Below, one piece after another: positions 4,416 to 34,940 of a stretch of 56,483 bases of DNA (the first letter of the stretch is position 1; each line of letters opens with the position of its first letter). The DNA is taken from positions 1 to 56,483 of the forward strand of contig CAKJYW010000028.1 in the NCBI GenBank assembly GCA_918272565.1. Direction: 5' to 3'. The stretch is from Bacilli bacterium (lineage in GTDB: Bacteria > Bacillota_I > Bacilli_A > ML615J-28 > CAG-698). The notes under the pieces were generated by a model. It was not told the DNA's origin. It ran no database searches and was given only the letters and a program-made list of their open reading frames with translations. Made by a program: the position numbers and the translations under genes.

Positions 4416-5368
4416 GAAAGAGAAATATCATATTTGCGTCTTTAATTGGAGTAGCAGTTTTAGTTTTCGTTTTATCAATCGTTTTGTTCTCAAAAGGTAG
4501 CGATACCTACAAGCTCACAACAATCAAACAAGCTTATAACGTTTTATCGTTAGTTAATGAAAAAGATGAAATTGTAATTCCAATTTATTCAAATAATAAG
4601 AAATGCGATTTTGTTGATAAGAAGAAGGTAGCAAATTGTTCAATAACCGACACTTTAGAAGACAATGTCTTTAAATTATCCCTAACTGATATTACTTCTA
4701 GTGGTAACGTCTTAAAGATTAGCGGTGAAGAATTCTATGAATATGAATATCATTTTACATTTTTAGGGGAATATACAGAAGAAGTAAGATCATTAATTGA
4801 TAAAGCCTATTTAAAGATTGAACTAAAAGAAAAAGAAGTAAGACTTTGTATTGGCTCACTAAGTTATTATAAAGTGTTAAATTATGGTGACGGAATTAAT
4901 AACCTCGATTTAGTTTGCCTAAAAGCGATAGTCAATGAATTAGATGACGAAAAGACGATTGTTGGGGTAGTAATGGGGCTGAAAAACAATTCTTACGATG
5001 GTCTAACTATTAGTAACATCAATTTGCTTGATGTTAACTTGAAAGCTTCAAGCGGTGAGATAAAGATCATCAATGAAGTTCCATCTTCAACTGATGATAT
5101 TAGCGCTCTACTTGGTTATGAATATAAGGTGAGTGGTGTCGCAATTGACAATGCTTTAGATATTAGCCTTGATTCATATGAAGTTAAATATCTACTAGTT
5201 CCTCTAAAAAGAGTAGGCGATGTCTATACTAATAGATTTGGTTTACAAATCGATTATTTGATTAATGGCAAAACTATGACTTATTATTTAGATGATTTCT
5301 TGTATTTTAAAGCCAATCAGAACCTAAAGCTAGAAGATTTTGAAATTTTCACTTATGAAAATAATTGA
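4412..5368 (+). CDS. Membrane-anchored protein of unknown function (second gene of ABC cluster)
   Basis: The 318-residue product starts with basic MRKRN and one hydrophobic segment (about 6-27), then a polar domain with many beta-strand-like stretches and three cysteines in the N-terminal half. No lipobox and no family motif is visible to me. GAGGAG lies just before the start inside the end of the previous gene, so translation is coupled. Its own end overlaps the ATPase gene by 14 bases. With the preceding protein it forms a pair of ectodomain proteins upstream of a minimal ABC-2-like transporter; a periplasm-side accessory role is inference. Confidence 0.75.
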   Translation: MRKRNIIFASLIGVAVLVFVLSIVLFSKGSDTYKLTTIKQAYNVLSLVNEKDEIVIPIYSNNKKCDFVDKKKVANCSITDTLEDNVFKLSLTDITSSGNVLKISGEEFYEYEYHFTFLGEYTEEVRSLIDKAYLKIELKEKEVRLCIGSLSYYKVLNYGDGINNLDLVCLKAIVNELDDEKTIVGVVMGLKNNSYDGLTISNINLLDVNLKASSGEIKIINEVPSSTDDISALLGYEYKVSGVAIDNALDISLDSYEVKYLLVPLKRVGDVYTNRFGLQIDYLINGKTMTYYLDDFLYFKANQNLKLEDFEIFTYENN

Positions 5369-5987
5369 GGTTAATGGATTAACAAAAAAATATCGCAAAC
5401 ACACTATTTTGAAAGATATAAATGTGAGTTTTTTAAAAAGTAAATGCTACATGCTTATTGGAAACAATGGAGCAGGAAAAAGCACCTTTATTAAGTGCTT
5501 GATTGGAGCAACTCACTTTAAAGGAGAAATCATTAAAATGATTACTAGAATAGGTTATGTACCAGAGAAAGTATTTCTCCCTCAGCACTTAACAGTAAGT
5601 GAGTTTTTGGAAGAAGTTGCAAGCTGTAAAGGAGTAGATGAAGGATTAGATTCTTTCATTAGTAGTAATTTAAGCAAATGGAGTATTTTAGAAAAAAAGA
5701 ATAGTTTGATAAAAACTTTATCTAAAGGGATGTTACAAAAAGTGTCAATCATTCAAAGTATGATTGATGATGGTGAACTTTTGATATTTGATGAAGTTTT
5801 AAATGGACTTGATCAAGATAATCAGCATATCTTCTTTGATACAATTAGAAGCCTAAAAGAAGAAGGAAAAACCATCATTGTATCAACGCACTATCCTAAA
5901 GAATATTTAGATATAGTTGATGTAATCTTAGAAATAAAGAATCAAAGTATTTATGAAAAGAAAGTATCAGATTATAAAACTAATTAA
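5355..5987 (+). CDS. ABC transporter ATP-binding protein
   Basis: This 210-residue protein is a compact nucleotide-binding domain. It shows Walker A GNNGAGKST, a signature-like LSKGMLQK replacing LSGGQ, Walker B LLIFDEVLNGLD and the H-loop STHYP. Length fits stand-alone ABC-2-type exporter ATPases. The ATG at 5355 is preferred over the in-frame TTG at 5340 because a normal ABC N-terminus begins there (MKIIEVNGLTK). It overlaps the upstream gene by 14 bases and the downstream permease gene by 35 bases, implying a stoichiometric complex with that permease at the cytoplasmic membrane. Substrate unknown. Confidence 0.9.
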   Translation: MKIIEVNGLTKKYRKHTILKDINVSFLKSKCYMLIGNNGAGKSTFIKCLIGATHFKGEIIKMITRIGYVPEKVFLPQHLTVSEFLEEVASCKGVDEGLDSFISSNLSKWSILEKKNSLIKTLSKGMLQKVSIIQSMIDDGELLIFDEVLNGLDQDNQHIFFDTIRSLKEEGKTIIVSTHYPKEYLDIVDVILEIKNQSIYEKKVSDYKTN

Positions 5988-6663
5988 ATGTCATTTTAAT
6001 TTCTGTTTTAGTAAAAAATCATCGATTCTTTTGATTTCTTTATTAGTGATTTCTACTATTTATAATTTTATTGTCATCGATAATATCGATGAGAGTTTAG
6101 GTAGTAATTATCTATTCCAAGGATACTTAGAATCTACTTTATCGTTTTTCAATTTTCTTTCAATACTTTTTTCGATAATTGTATTTTCTTATTCCTTTTT
6201 AACAAAGCAAGATAGTTACCTTTCCTATTTAATAGGTAGTAGGGTTACTAAATTAGCTTATTTTTATACTAAGATTGTGGCTATAATTATGTATTCTTTG
6301 TTATTCTTTATTGCTTTAATAATCTCTTTCTTTATTCCTTTCTTTATTAAAAAAACTCTTTATATAGATAGTAGTGTTGTTTTGTGCTTTTTTGATGCAC
6401 TAAAGGTAATGATTTATTATGGATTAATATCATTATTATTAGTATTAGCATTTGATAACATGTATGTAGCGATAATACCAATTGTTTTATTTATCTTTTC
6501 AACAAACATAACTTTATTAGAAGAAAAACTATCAAAAATCTTATCTTGTATTATTCCTGTTTATAGTGAAAGTTATTTGCTTATTAGTCCAAAAGGAGTA
6601 ATTATAACAATTATTATGATATTAGTTATAATAAATGGCATCTATTACTATTATCGGGATTAG
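5953..6663 (+). CDS. ABC transporter permease (ABC-2-like), about six membrane helices
   Basis: The 236-residue product is strongly hydrophobic with segments near residues 18-37, 60-82, 97-130, 140-165, 168-182 and 213-234, the usual pattern of a small ABC-2-type permease. No motif tells the substrate. The 35-base overlap with the ATPase gene and matched size support a two-component exporter with the upstream NBD. It is the last gene of the four-gene operon. I see no good terminator hairpin before the next promoter at 6668, so some read-through into the lipoprotein genes is possible. Confidence 0.8.
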   Translation: MKRKYQIIKLIKCHFNFCFSKKSSILLISLLVISTIYNFIVIDNIDESLGSNYLFQGYLESTLSFFNFLSILFSIIVFSYSFLTKQDSYLSYLIGSRVTKLAYFYTKIVAIIMYSLLFFIALIISFFIPFFIKKTLYIDSSVVLCFFDALKVMIYYGLISLLLVLAFDNMYVAIIPIVLFIFSTNITLLEEKLSKILSCIIPVYSESYLLISPKGVIITIIMILVIINGIYYYYRD

Positions 6664-6667
6664 CATA

Positions 6668-6696
6668 TTGCATTTAAGTGGTTTTTATGCTAAAAT
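6668..6696 (+). promoter_or_regulatory. Sigma-A-type promoter for the Big_2 lipoprotein operon
   Basis: TTGCAT (6668-6673) and TAAAAT (6691-6696) are separated by 17 bases, 25 bases before the first lipoprotein start. It sits directly after the permease stop codon. Confidence 0.6.
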
Positions 6697-6720
6697 ATAT
6701 AATAATATGAGGTTATTAGT

Positions 6721-7875
6721 ATGAAGAAATTTTATAAAGTTTTGTTTGCCTTGATATTACTAAGTGCACTAATCTTTCTTCCAGCTTGTAAGAAAAAATA
6801 TAGCGCCACTATCAAGGGTGAACGTAGTGTTTTAGAGGGTGAACAAATAACTCTTTCCATAGATACAAATATTGAAACATATTCTTTGAAGTGGACTTCA
6901 TCAAATCCTGAAGTTGCTTCAATCAATCCTAATGGTGTAGTGACTGGTATTAAAGAAGGTACTACTGAAATAAGAGTAACGATTAATGATATGGTACTAG
7001 ATGCGATAGTAACAGTAACCAAATTTGAAATCAATATCTCTTGTGAGAAGTACTTACACATCGGTGATAAGACAAAAATGGTAGTCACTCACAATTCGAA
7101 ATTAGAAAAAGAAGTGTTCTTTGTATCAAGTAATGCGGATGTAGCTACCATTAGTCAAGATGGTGAAATTGAAGCCTTAAGTGAAGGAGAAACAACAATA
7201 ACTGTAACCGTTGGTGGTAAAAAGAAAAACTTTTTACTTAAGGTGTTACCTATAGGTGAAGAAATTCCAATTGATGATCCGCCTATAGACGACCCAGTTG
7301 ATGATCCAGTTGACGATCCAACAGATGAACCTGGACCGGTTGTTATCCCAATTGAAATCTATGTTCCAACAATCATAAAATATGACGATTGTATTATCGC
7401 TACAGCAAACCGTGATGTTACTTGGTATTCAAGCGATCCAGATAATATTTTGTTTTTTAATGAAGAAAATGAAATTGTCCTAATGGGAGGATTTGGACCA
7501 GTCACAATTAAAGCTGTTGATGTAAATAATAAAGATGCATACGTCGAAAAAGTAGTATATGTTGTTTTAACTGATGTAGCGCCTAAAGAAATCGAGATCT
7601 ATAATGAAGATGGCGTATATGAAGTGGCACTAGAGAAAGTGGGCGGTATTGTTAGTAGCTCTTTACAATTAAAGGTTAGAGCAGTAAATAGTAGTGACGA
7701 TGCAGACACTACTGTAGTTTGGACTACTAGCGATGAAAGTGTTGCTGCTATTGGAAAAAGTGGTTTAGTAGTTCCTAATAAGATTGGTACTGTAACAATT
7801 AAAGCCGTTTCTGTTCATGACGAGTCAGTCTACGCAACAGTTACTATAAAGGTAGTATCATCAACAGGTAAATAA
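6721..7875 (+). CDS. Lipoprotein with bacterial Ig-like (Big_2) domains
   Basis: The 384-residue product has a type II signal peptide with lipobox LPAC (Cys23), so it should be anchored on the outer face of the membrane. Big_2-like repeats are visible at about 28-105, 108-178, 215-290 and 295-380, each with a WxSSxPxxAxI-type strand and a GxxxGxxxIxV ending. Between the second and third lies an Asp/Pro-rich linker (about 183-205) built from repeated DDPV/DDPP units, probably an extended spacer. Such domains typically serve adhesion or hold catalytic domains away from the surface. It is 2 bases from the GH3 lipoprotein gene, so the two act together; no catalytic domain is present here. Confidence 0.85.
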   Translation: MKKFYKVLFALILLSALIFLPACKKKYSATIKGERSVLEGEQITLSIDTNIETYSLKWTSSNPEVASINPNGVVTGIKEGTTEIRVTINDMVLDAIVTVTKFEINISCEKYLHIGDKTKMVVTHNSKLEKEVFFVSSNADVATISQDGEIEALSEGETTITVTVGGKKKNFLLKVLPIGEEIPIDDPPIDDPVDDPVDDPTDEPGPVVIPIEIYVPTIIKYDDCIIATANRDVTWYSSDPDNILFFNEENEIVLMGGFGPVTIKAVDVNNKDAYVEKVVYVVLTDVAPKEIEIYNEDGVYEVALEKVGGIVSSSLQLKVRAVNSSDDADTTVVWTTSDESVAAIGKSGLVVPNKIGTVTIKAVSVHDESVYATVTIKVVSSTGK

Positions 7876-11073: not shown

Positions 11074-11193
11074 AGTGGAAAGAAGAAGTACCCACTTCTC
11101 ACCTGACTGATTATGTTGGTAGGTAAATGGTCACTTATAAAAAGTTTTGTGATTTATATTAGTGGGTGCATTCTGCGCCTACTTTTTATTTTT
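11074..11193 (+). promoter_or_regulatory. L20/IF3-type leader with attenuator hairpins
   Basis: The 5' leader resembles the autoregulatory leader of infC-rpmI-rplT in Bacillota, including the sequence CCCACTTCTCACC. A terminator is visible: AGTGGGTGC (11161-11169) pairs with 11175-11183 (two wobbles, loop ATTCT) and is followed by a T-rich tract 11184-11193. Its 5' arm can instead pair with ACCCACT at 11090-11096, giving an antiterminator. That strand can in turn be taken by AGTGG at 11074-11078 or by a local hairpin (11084-11089 with 11094-11099). The pairings are mutually exclusive. In Bacillus subtilis, L20 protein binding to this leader favours termination; the same here is inference. Confidence 0.8.
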
Positions 11194-11228
11194 ACTATGA
11201 TTAAATACTTACAATGGAGGTGCTAATT

Positions 11229-31245: not shown

Positions 31246-31252
31246 AAGAATT

Positions 31253-31285
31253 AACTTAAATAGGTTACCTATTTAAGTTTTTTTT
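31253..31285 (+). terminator. Terminator of the DUF2188 gene
   Basis: A perfect 12-bp stem (31253-31264 with 31268-31279), loop TTA, then six further T. Confidence 0.93.
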
Positions 31286-31310
31286 ATGCTTTATTTTTTT
31301 GAAATTATAC

Positions 31311-31339
31311 TTAAAAAAATAGTAATTTTGTAGTATAAT
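31311..31339 (+). promoter_or_regulatory. Probable promoter of the EIIC-EAL gene
   Basis: TATAAT at 31334-31339 with a weak TTAAAA 17 bases upstream (31311-31316). Confidence 0.45.
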
Positions 31340-31389
31340 AAGTAACGTGAGAATTGGTGTTTATTTGCCTTGGTTATTGGAGGAATAAT

Positions 31390-33498
31390 ATGACAAACAA
31401 ACTAATGATAAATTATTATAAAACAATAGATAAAATTCAAAAGAGACCATCTATTAAGGCCATTCGTAACGGATTAGTTAATATGATACCAGTATTAATT
31501 ATTGGTGCATTCTCTTTGATTCTAAAGACATTCCCTATTAAGGGATATCAAACATTTATTAACACTTTTGCCAATGGATTTATACTAAATCTGTTTGATT
31601 TTATTTATCAAGCAACATTTGGTGTACTTGCTGTTTATATGACATTTTCAATCAGTCGTTCATATATGAAGTTTAAAGCTGACCCTGATACTGTTCATGG
31701 TGGGGCAATTTTAGCTTCAATTCTTTGTTTCTTCATTTTGTCAGGTGCGTATCTTCCAGGATTTGGACTTGATAAGATGGGACCTAAAGCAATGCTTCCA
31801 GCAATCATTTCAGGTTTAGGTGCATCAAGTTTATATTTATTATTCTATCGTTTGTTTAATAAGAAGATGAGACTTAGTTTTGCAGCGGGATCTGACAGAA
31901 ATTTCAATAGAATGTTATCAACATTCATTCCAATTTCATTAGTTGCTATTTCCTTTGCCTTAACAAATATCATCATCACTAGAATATTTAAAACAGATTC
32001 CTTCCATGATTTATATATCAATATTTTAAATAATTTATTCTCATATGGAGGAGATAAACCAGGATTTTTTAAAGGTTTCTTCTTTGTATTATTATCATCA
32101 ATTCTATGGTTCTTTGGTGTTCACGGAAGTGATGCCTTAGAAGGTGTAATGCAAACAGTGTTTGTTCCAGGACTTTTAGAAAACCAAGCTGCAATTGCTG
32201 CCGGTGCTCAACCAACTGCAATTCTTTCTAAGCAATTCTTTGATTGCTTCGTATTAATGGGTGGATGTGGTGCCACAATTTGTTTGCTTATTGCCATTTT
32301 GTTGTTCTCACAAAATCGTTCAAGAAGAGGACTAGGAATTACCGCTTCCTTCCCTATGATATTTAACATTAATGAGTTAATGGTATTTGGTCTACCAATC
32401 ATCTTTAACCCAATTATGTTAATTCCATTCCTTGTTACTCCGCTTGTATGTTATTCAATTAGCTATTTAGCTACTGCAATTGGAATTGTACCAATGATAG
32501 CAACAGAAATTGAGTGGACTACTCCAGTTTTACTGGGTGGCTATCTCGCTACAAACTCTATCACAGGTGCTTTATTGCAATTATTTAATATTTGTGTTGG
32601 TGTTTTAATTTATGTTCCATTCGTTCGTATTTTAGATAAAGAAAGCGAACGTAATAGTCGTCAAATGTACAATGAATTTATTAAATATTACATCGACAAT
32701 GAGCAAATGTTACAAAGTGAGACATTAATTGATTTAAATAGTGTCTATGGTAACTATGCAAAAGAACTATGTGCTGAATTAAAACATGACTTAGTTGAAA
32801 ACATTAGATTCTTCTACCAACCTCAATACGATTATACTGGTAAGTGTGTGGGAGTAGAAGCACTTCTTAGATGGAAACATCCAGAGCATGGATTCTTATA
32901 TCCTCCACTAGTTATTAAACTAGCAAAAGAATGTGGAGTCTTAACTCGTTTTGAAGAAGAAGTATTTTTACATGTTCTAAAAGAACGTGATGAAGTAATT
33001 GAGAAATATGGTAAAGGAATTTCTTTATCAATTAATATTAGTGGTGACACTATCACTAATAGTGAATTCATTCAATTCTTGAAGCAACAAGATAAAGTTG
33101 ATCCATTTATGGGTAAAAATGTTCACATCGAAGTTACTGAAAGAGCAGCTTTATCACTTGATGATAAGACTTATATTGCTTTAAAGGAACTTAAAGATTT
33201 AGGAATTGGACTTGAAATAGATGACTTCTCAATGGGTCAAACTTCAATTCAATATTTGAAATACAACTTGTTTGACTGCTTGAAGATTGATGGATCTTTA
33301 GTTAGTGGATTAACTACTTCTCAAAACTGTCGTGAGATTATCTCTTCAATCACTGAACTAACTAGCGCCCTTAACATTTATGTTATCGCTGAGTTTGTTG
33401 AAACAGAGGAACAAAAAGAAATCTTACATTCAATTGGATGCGATAGATATCAAGGATGGTTATATTCTAAAGCTGTTCCACTTAATGAAGAAGAATAA
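31390..33498 (+). CDS. PTS EIIC-like membrane domain fused to an EAL (c-di-GMP phosphodiesterase) domain
   Basis: The 702-residue product joins an N-terminal EIIC-like region (about 1-420, roughly ten helices, lactose/cellobiose type with FFGVHGSD and FNINELMVFGLPI) to a C-terminal EAL domain (about 460-700). EAL residues appear intact: EALLRW (Glu490), NISGD, EVTERA, DDFSMG, LKIDGS, Glu in AEFVE and Gln in YQGWLYSK, so hydrolysis of c-di-GMP is predicted. The usual NEP motif of EIIC reads NEL, and no EIIA or EIIB domain is present or nearby. The membrane part may therefore act as a sugar sensor. ATG 31390 follows GGAGG; the frame upstream lacks a ribosome site. Confidence 0.9.
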   Translation: MTNKLMINYYKTIDKIQKRPSIKAIRNGLVNMIPVLIIGAFSLILKTFPIKGYQTFINTFANGFILNLFDFIYQATFGVLAVYMTFSISRSYMKFKADPDTVHGGAILASILCFFILSGAYLPGFGLDKMGPKAMLPAIISGLGASSLYLLFYRLFNKKMRLSFAAGSDRNFNRMLSTFIPISLVAISFALTNIIITRIFKTDSFHDLYINILNNLFSYGGDKPGFFKGFFFVLLSSILWFFGVHGSDALEGVMQTVFVPGLLENQAAIAAGAQPTAILSKQFFDCFVLMGGCGATICLLIAILLFSQNRSRRGLGITASFPMIFNINELMVFGLPIIFNPIMLIPFLVTPLVCYSISYLATAIGIVPMIATEIEWTTPVLLGGYLATNSITGALLQLFNICVGVLIYVPFVRILDKESERNSRQMYNEFIKYYIDNEQMLQSETLIDLNSVYGNYAKELCAELKHDLVENIRFFYQPQYDYTGKCVGVEALLRWKHPEHGFLYPPLVIKLAKECGVLTRFEEEVFLHVLKERDEVIEKYGKGISLSINISGDTITNSEFIQFLKQQDKVDPFMGKNVHIEVTERAALSLDDKTYIALKELKDLGIGLEIDDFSMGQTSIQYLKYNLFDCLKIDGSLVSGLTTSQNCREIISSITELTSALNIYVIAEFVETEEQKEILHSIGCDRYQGWLYSKAVPLNEEE

Positions 33499-33503
33499 AA
33501 AAT

Positions 33504-33532
33504 ACCGTTACTTTTTAAAAGTAACGGTTTTT
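33504..33532. terminator. Bidirectional terminator between the EIIC-EAL and YfcC genes
   Basis: An 11-bp stem (33504-33514 with 33518-33528) with A-run left and T-run right, between convergent genes. Confidence 0.88.
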
Positions 33533-33539
33533 GTTTTAC

Positions 33540-34940
33540 TTATATTCCTAAAGCGACAGCACCAACTAAGAATAATGCTGAAGATAGAAGAAGGAATAAT
33601 AGGAATAATCCATTCTTCTTTATCCAATCGATGAAACTTACATCAGCTAAGCCTAAGCCTATTAGTAGAGTTCCACATGTTGGGTATAATACATTAGTGT
33701 ATCCATCTCCAAACAAGTAGCATAGGATAATAACATTTACTGAAATACCTGGGATTGGTGCTAAAGTGAGTAGAGGTATTAATAACAAAGCTTTAGCAGA
33801 AGAACCAGGGATAAAGAATTCAACAATCAAAACGAATAAATAGATAATAATAACTGCTAGGTAAGGTGATGTATTACTCAAATAATTATAAATATAATAG
33901 AATAATGTGTGCAAAATATCACCACATTCAGCTACATATTTGATTGAGAATGCTGTCATCATGATTAGTAGAGAAGGAGCGATAGCAACGCATCCCTTCC
34001 AGAATGATTTTCCCCACTCTTTGAAACTTCCAATTAAGATTTTACCGATGATTAGAGTTCCAATTAGGAAGGCGATTCCCATAATTACCATTCCAAGACC
34101 TAAGTCTCTTAAGAATGGGACAACAGCAAATAATATTACAATAAATAGAACAAAAGCAAATAATGATAGAATCATCTTTGTTTTTTTCTTGTCTTCGTCT
34201 GTTATAACGATTTCTTCAGCTTCTTCGCTAACTAAAGAGGCATTTTGTTTTTCCTCTTTTTTAACAAACTTAACTAAATATAGAGATGTTAAAACATAAA
34301 GGATAACAAAGATTAAAGCTCTATAGAATAAACCATCAATTACAGTTGTTCCAGTTAAGCCAGCACATAATCCAATAGTGAATGGATTAAAGAGGGCACA
34401 AGTGAAACCAACGCCTGTTGTTATTAAAACAAAGTTTAGGGCTGTTACTTTACTCCATTTCATAGCATTTGCAAAACTAAAGAAGATTGGGAATAAAATA
34501 AGTAGCTCTTCTTGAAGTCCAAAGAATGATGATAAACACATCATTAGTAGAGTAATAATCCAAATAGATAAATATCTCTTTTCTTTGAATTTGTTAATGA
34601 TTGTTTTGATTAATGATTTAATAGCACCAGAATCTTCTAGGACTTTAAAGCATCCACCTAGAACCAAAATCATAGCAAATATTTCGAACATGCTAATGTT
34701 ACCATTACCAAATATTGCTCCTTCAATTGGTGCAGTTGGCCAACGATACCAAGGAAGTCTAGTGTTTGATGTTATAAATTCAAACGATCCTTCGATGATC
34801 TTACCTGCTTCATCTAGTTTATAGCTTCCTGCTGGAATAATATAAGTTAATATTCCAACAATCACTAAAATGATATATAAAAGGGCGATTGTTTTTAAAA
34901 AACTCTTTAAACCAATCTTTAAATCAGTTTTCTCTTCCAT
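33540..34940 (-). CDS. YfcC-family membrane carrier
   Basis: The 466-residue, about 12-helix protein shows the YfcC/DcuC-like opening (IVGILTYIIPAGSY) and the GLQEELLILFPIF and FFIPGSSAKALLLIPL segments of this family. Members are proposed carriers for C4-dicarboxylates, arginine/ornithine or short-chain acids; the substrate is not proven for most. AAGGA lies 10 bases before the ATG. It overlaps the VTT gene by 17 bases and is the last gene of a four-gene minus-strand operon. Confidence 0.82.
   Translation of the reverse strand: MEEKTDLKIGLKSFLKTIALLYIILVIVGILTYIIPAGSYKLDEAGKIIEGSFEFITSNTRLPWYRWPTAPIEGAIFGNGNISMFEIFAMILVLGGCFKVLEDSGAIKSLIKTIINKFKEKRYLSIWIITLLMMCLSSFFGLQEELLILFPIFFSFANAMKWSKVTALNFVLITTGVGFTCALFNPFTIGLCAGLTGTTVIDGLFYRALIFVILYVLTSLYLVKFVKKEEKQNASLVSEEAEEIVITDEDKKKTKMILSLFAFVLFIVILFAVVPFLRDLGLGMVIMGIAFLIGTLIIGKILIGSFKEWGKSFWKGCVAIAPSLLIMMTAFSIKYVAECGDILHTLFYYIYNYLSNTSPYLAVIIIYLFVLIVEFFIPGSSAKALLLIPLLTLAPIPGISVNVIILCYLFGDGYTNVLYPTCGTLLIGLGLADVSFIDWIKKNGLFLLFLLLSSALFLVGAVALGI

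Follow-up and report, generated by a model that had tools for sequence, protein, structure and literature searches.

A widespread EIIC–EAL fusion is a candidate PTS-independent sugar receptor that would control c-di-GMP breakdown

What can the membrane domain of a sugar phosphotransferase system (PTS) do when it is joined to a c-di-GMP phosphodiesterase domain in a genome in which its phosphorylation partners are not found? The question is raised by a gene in a 56,483-nucleotide contig of a gut bacterium of the Bacilli; "the window" below means this whole stretch of DNA. The original prediction held that a PTS-EIIC domain is fused here to an EAL domain. Indeed, an uninterrupted ORF at 31390–33498 on the + strand encodes a 702-aa protein in which both Pfam domains exceed their cut-offs, PTS_EIIC at residues 26–351 (105.6 bits; cut-off 30.7) and EAL at residues 470–694 (175.3 bits; cut-off 31.3). 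GGAGG is located upstream of the ATG, and an in-frame TTG at 31354 is an alternative start. The features of the locus are as follows.

31253..31279, + strand: terminator-like hairpin with T run, separating the DUF2188 gene from the fusion gene (z −4.59 for 31246–31300)
31311..31339, + strand: weak promoter-like sequence, TTAAAA-17-TATAAT
31390..33498, + strand: coding sequence of the EIIC–EAL fusion, 702 aa (ORF and Pfam)
31432..32655, + strand: lactose/cellobiose-family EIIC, residues 15–422 (TIGR00410; PF02378, residues 26–351; fold match to 3qnq_A)
32116..32127, + strand: GVHG, residues 243–246, including His245 (present in 77/77 fusions and 11/11 transporter EIICs)
32371..32379, + strand: N328-E329-L330, the altered NEP motif (alignment of fusions and other EIICs)
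32560..32787, + strand: last long helix (391–436) and linker to residue 466 (predicted structure; conservation)
32797..33471, + strand: EAL phosphodiesterase domain, residues 470–694 (Pfam, alignment and fold match)
33504..33528, no strand assigned: terminator-like hairpin 3′ of the fusion gene, with a T run on both strands (z −4.10 for 33499–33545)

Six terminator-like sites were observed, compared with 0.7 expected in shuffles. The neighbors of the fusion gene are a DUF2188 gene upstream and a DcuC-family gene downstream on the opposite strand. With these neighbors and a terminator-like hairpin on each side, the fusion gene is probably transcribed alone. The stretch has 12 promoter-like sites, whereas shuffled sequence gives 15.5; the one at 31311–31339 is thus no better than chance, and it was dropped as a promoter. 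Rfam models revealed no c-di-GMP riboswitch in the window. A ribosomal protein L20 leader is located at window positions 11074–11196 (+). No neighboring gene is conserved among related loci, the widest family occurring in 3 of 81, many of which have short flanks.

The membrane half of the protein scores 247.1 against TIGR00410, the lacE subfamily, above the curated cut-off of 236. Its best solved relative is ChbC of Bacillus cereus (3qnq), with an alignment that spans residues 14–419; ChbC is of the same EIIC family but has no EAL domain. W240, H245, K281, N328, E329 and W376 are invariant in all 77 aligned fusions, and among 11 transporter EIICs W240, H245 and E329 are present in every one and W376 in 10. 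The fusion, like ChbC, keeps the conserved site His and Glu (H245 and E329) of lactose/cellobiose EIICs. By analogy with ChbC, W240, H245, E329 and W376 are presumed to be sugar-site residues. In an AlphaFold model of the fusion (mean pLDDT 85.3, pTM 0.72, 46 sequences), the EIIC half matches 3qnq_A with Z 25.3 and an rmsd of 9.9 over 322 residues; the rmsd near 10, seen in the Foldseek and VIA matches, perhaps reflects another transport state. Residues 391–436 are predicted to form one helix that continues into the linker, and the linker (residues 421–469) is less conserved in the 77 aligned fusions (0.54 compared with 0.72 and 0.71).

This half departs from other EIICs in its altered NEP motif, in the context FNINELMVFG. 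The residue after E329 is Leu in 75 of the 77 fusions, Met in one and Ile in one; five of six more distant fusions also have a residue other than Pro, so that Pro is lost in 82 of 83 overall. In EIICs without an EAL domain, Pro follows the site Glu in 17 of 18 (the Priestia sister EIIC of ChbC, L159, and 16 others), and the exception is the crystallized ChbC chain, 3qnq_A, which has Met. As judged from these alignments, NEL, which the original prediction had picked out, is a real, clade-typical feature and not an oddity of the query copy. Decay was ruled out as its cause, as the change is clade-wide while H245, E329 and W376 never vary. Nor did we accept NEL as proof that transport is lost, because 3qnq carries Met at the same position.

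The enzyme half retains E490, N549, E581, E584, D611, D612, K632, E668 and Q688, all nine of which are invariant in 77/77 aligned fusions. Their catalytic and metal-binding roles are presumed by comparison with RocR, whose spacing of these residues the fusion matches within one residue. Against EAL structures, the AlphaFold model of this domain reaches a Z of up to 26.8, for 5m3c, with an rmsd of 2.4 across 251 residues. Loop 6 departs from the usual form, reading DDFSMGQTS where the solved EAL domains compared have DDFGTGHSS. Of the 77 fusions, 76 have Ser614, 75 have Met615 and 69 have Gln617; since these residues are near-constant, the loop 6 form is a family trait. The domain is predicted to be an intact and active phosphodiesterase, in agreement with the earlier claim that its catalytic residues are kept, and no metal ligand is missing.

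To work as a PTS permease, the EIIC would have to share its cell with EI, HPr and EIIB. The host genome (1.69 Mb, 47 contigs, 97.4% complete) was searched for PTS_EIIC, HPr, PTS_IIB (PF02302), the EI N-terminal domain and PEP-utilizers_C. The same searches in 14 named control genomes gave PTS_EIIC in 7, HPr in 7, PTS_IIB in 6, EI in 7 and PEP-utilizers_C in 14. In the 97.4% complete host genome, HPr, the EI N-terminal domain and PTS_IIB each gave zero matches, and the sole PTS_EIIC match is the fusion gene itself. PEP-utilizers_C gave two matches, by eye pieces of pyruvate phosphate dikinase. These pieces lie on two contig ends (L015 on C35 and L016 on C25) and overlap but are not identical, representing either a second copy or a strain mixture in the assembly. 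Consistent with the proposed absence of an EIIA/EIIB partner, phmmer found no EIIA or EIIB gene at E 1e-3 in the window or at 80 related loci, using a single Listeria EIIA and a single Listeria EIIB as queries, which recovered the copies of other species in control loci. An ordinary transporter with its partners encoded elsewhere was thus rejected for the host genome, which has no match to HPr, EI or PTS_IIB and no second PTS_EIIC. GGDEF domains gave nine matches, eight over the cut-off, all of them on contigs other than that of the window, which is as predicted free of GGDEF genes. Five host proteins (L001–L005) have the canonical motif, so that c-di-GMP can be made, and the possibility raised with the prediction that the genome has no synthase does not hold. 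Including the fusion, the host has five EAL proteins, the other four of which also contain GGDEF-type domains, one below the cut-off.

The PTS inventory was extended to 54 fusion genomes, namely the host, G036–G038, and 50 reached via 50 of the 80 loci, which were picked by rank and supplemented with distant ones; in one genome of the 54, the fusion has a broken frame (L127). EI is present in 10 of the 54, with G035, which has no fusion, as positive control. PTS_IIB exceeds the cut-off in eight, all among the 10 EI-positive genomes, and falls below it in three more; its matches lie mostly in frames of 636–706 aa, and G046 also has a 127-aa frame that is possibly a separate EIIB. HPr is more common, at 32/54. 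Most fusion hosts are metagenome-assembled genomes (MAGs), so single absences may be incompleteness, yet EI and PTS_IIB agree. Two records not labeled as MAGs, L078 (G056) and L141 (G092, 4.5 Mb), are also without EI and PTS_IIB, with HPr found in G056 and not in G092. No alignment column separates the fusions of the 10 EI-positive genomes from those of the other 43. The idea that all fusion hosts are PTS-free was rejected, given the HPr and EI counts; as these counts and the 127-aa frame in G046 indicate, PTS coupling may occur in some hosts. Collectively, PTS partners are absent from the searches of the whole host genome and of most of the relatives checked, which extends the original prediction beyond the window.

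Within its order the fusion is patchy, the full protein being found in 4 of 43 genomes. PTS_EIIC exceeds the cut-off only in these four and in G035, where it lies within a protein of 658 aa, adjacent to HPr and EI. Weak PTS_EIIC matches in G021, G022 and G040 were set aside; the longest frames there are on the other strand and by eye resemble DcuC/YfcC-type transporters. HPr was found in 9 of the 43 genomes and in none of the four with the fusion. HPr is thus found in several genomes of the order (e.g., L055–L061) even though G035 and the fusion genomes are alone in having PTS_EIIC over the cut-off, and it may be regulatory there. Beyond the order, relatives are encoded at 99 loci in genome contig records, the best 80 of which were analyzed and are 42–73% identical; 59 of these 80 have rumen, reticulum or RUG in their titles. 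The fusion is thus a widespread family, mostly of rumen Bacillota. In one rumen copy, L127, the gene is broken into shorter frames at 5001–7063, the longest of 568 aa. Among the matches listed from plasmid-collection records are distant fusions from C. difficile (WP_003435700), Acetoanaerobium, Photobacterium, Vibrio, Pseudoalteromonas and Tritonibacter. These proteins, four of them proteobacterial, share the architecture and EIIC branch of the query but are 27–39% identical to it, and in the Photobacterium protein (L150) Asn replaces His245 and NEP is kept, which sets it apart from the other fusions compared. An EIIC–EAL protein is reportedly listed in a 2011 PLoS Genetics survey of the c-di-GMP enzymes of C. 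difficile. Two of the records filed as plasmids look chromosomal, the 163-kb C. difficile record (L149), in which rlmH lies beside the EIIC–EAL gene, and the 2.6-Mb Acetoanaerobium record (L146). In phage records, no place covered 80% of the fusion protein.

In a tree of EIIC domains only, one branch (support 99/97) splits 20 fusions from 18 EIICs without EAL, among which ChbC falls on the transporter side; the same split was seen in an earlier tree (97/94), built from 28 fusions and 11 others. These trees have an assumed root and long proteobacterial rows, and closer EIICs without EAL may have been missed, since those used were drawn from plasmid records and the PDB. When 79 fusions are placed in a quick tree, the query falls with one Mollicutes, three Bacilli and one unplaced row in a set (SH-aLRT 98) inside Clostridia-labeled rows. 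This nesting, together with the patchy presence in the order, suggests horizontal transfer of the fusion, with the proviso that MAG labels are unreliable. Sensor domains usually change faster than enzymes. The two halves of the fusion, in contrast, are equally conserved, with mean pairwise identities, taken across 2926 pairs, of 0.61 (EIIC) and 0.60 (EAL), and the ligand of the EIIC is thus probably fixed.

Of the readings considered, the one we favor, and hold to be probable by a modest degree, is that the protein is a self-contained membrane c-di-GMP phosphodiesterase in which the EIIC would act as a sugar receptor without phosphotransfer. This reading follows from a site that is kept, phosphorylation partners that are gone, an enzyme that is intact and a helical link between the two. 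A β-linked di- or oligosaccharide, probably such as cellobiose, would bind near His245, Glu329 and Trp376; a cello-oligosaccharide is perhaps the ligand, a guess from family and habitat. The resulting movement of the EIIC would pass through the last long helix to the linker, which would alter how the EAL domains pair or what state they adopt, so that c-di-GMP is broken down according to the sugar supply. EAL enzymes work in pairs. Such EIICs are likewise dimeric and have an elevator movement (excerpts of PMC7329351), so that two EAL domains would sit on each EIIC dimer, whose movement could re-pair them. The direct sugar control of c-di-GMP breakdown that was originally proposed stands as the best reading of the sequences, with both metal ligands and synthases present, although its ligand, activity, dimer coupling and direction are putative. 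Against it are the unusual loop 6 and the fact that conserved site residues would suit a transporter too. An alternative is that the EIIC is a non-phosphorylating sugar facilitator with a tethered EAL domain that reads flux, or whose c-di-GMP state gates uptake. Every transporter-type site residue is kept; however, no sugar-processing gene is conserved beside the fusion, and the fusion EIICs form their own branch with the Pro after the site Glu almost always lost, so we consider a facilitator unlikely.

We think it distinctly unlikely that the EIIC is a mere membrane anchor and dimer scaffold for an EAL domain that is constitutive or otherwise regulated. The PTS partners are missing in the host genome and EIICs are dimeric (excerpts of PMC7329351), but an anchor would have no need to keep W240, H245, E329 and W376 in 77/77 fusions or to evolve as slowly as the enzyme. 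Receptor-type EAL domains have lost some of their catalytic residues. The family shows no such LapD-like loss, all nine catalytic and metal residues being present in 77/77 fusions, and an inactive, LapD-like c-di-GMP receptor that controls the EIIC from the inside is very improbable even with the unusual loop 6 in its favor; LapD is also among the fold matches, as expected of any EAL. Slightly less probable still is a PTS-coupled sensor, in which EIIB docks on the EIIC and its phosphorylation state or flux sets EAL activity. The view of PTS_EIIC as a phosphoreceiver (excerpts of PMC8846402) and the EI and HPr of some fusion genomes fit such a sensor, but EI, HPr and PTS_IIB were not found in the host genome, nor EI in 44/54 fusion genomes.

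Comparison with known systems helps to place the receptor reading. The excerpts of PMC8846402 name PTS_EIIC among the rare domains of c-di-GMP proteins, combined as here with c-di-GMP enzyme domains. They view it as a phosphoreceiver, however, whereas the genome of the fusion has no detected EI, HPr or PTS_IIB, and that role cannot apply when a cell lacks EI, HPr and EIIB; because the EIIC persists in genomes that yield no EI or EIIB, the phosphoreceiver mechanism is unlikely in most hosts checked. In Vibrio cholerae, sugar state likewise reaches a c-di-GMP phosphodiesterase, PdeS, but via phosphorylated EIIA-Glc and a separate phosphodiesterase, so that the PTS is needed (excerpts of PMC6877527 and PMC8846402). 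In the literature searched, outside which many subscription papers lie, there was no characterized EIIC–EAL protein or report of PTS-less hosts, and, as far as the excerpts extend, only PMC8846402 treats PTS_EIIC in c-di-GMP proteins. Thus, the domain pair was already known, and its independence from the PTS appears new. A fuller account, on which we are evenly divided, is that an EIIC branch, fused to EAL long ago, then gave up transporting sugar and became a phosphorylation-independent transmembrane sugar receptor that persists without the PTS, with its elevator movement switching c-di-GMP breakdown and perhaps reporting rumen cello-oligosaccharides. The finding suggests that a transporter was co-opted as a receptor, and it offers a one-protein system for asking whether an elevator-type transporter can signal. 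The two records not labeled as MAGs that carry the fusion without EI or PTS_IIB matches (L078 and L141) should make this testable, and in rumen bacteria the protein is a candidate direct link from sugar to c-di-GMP.
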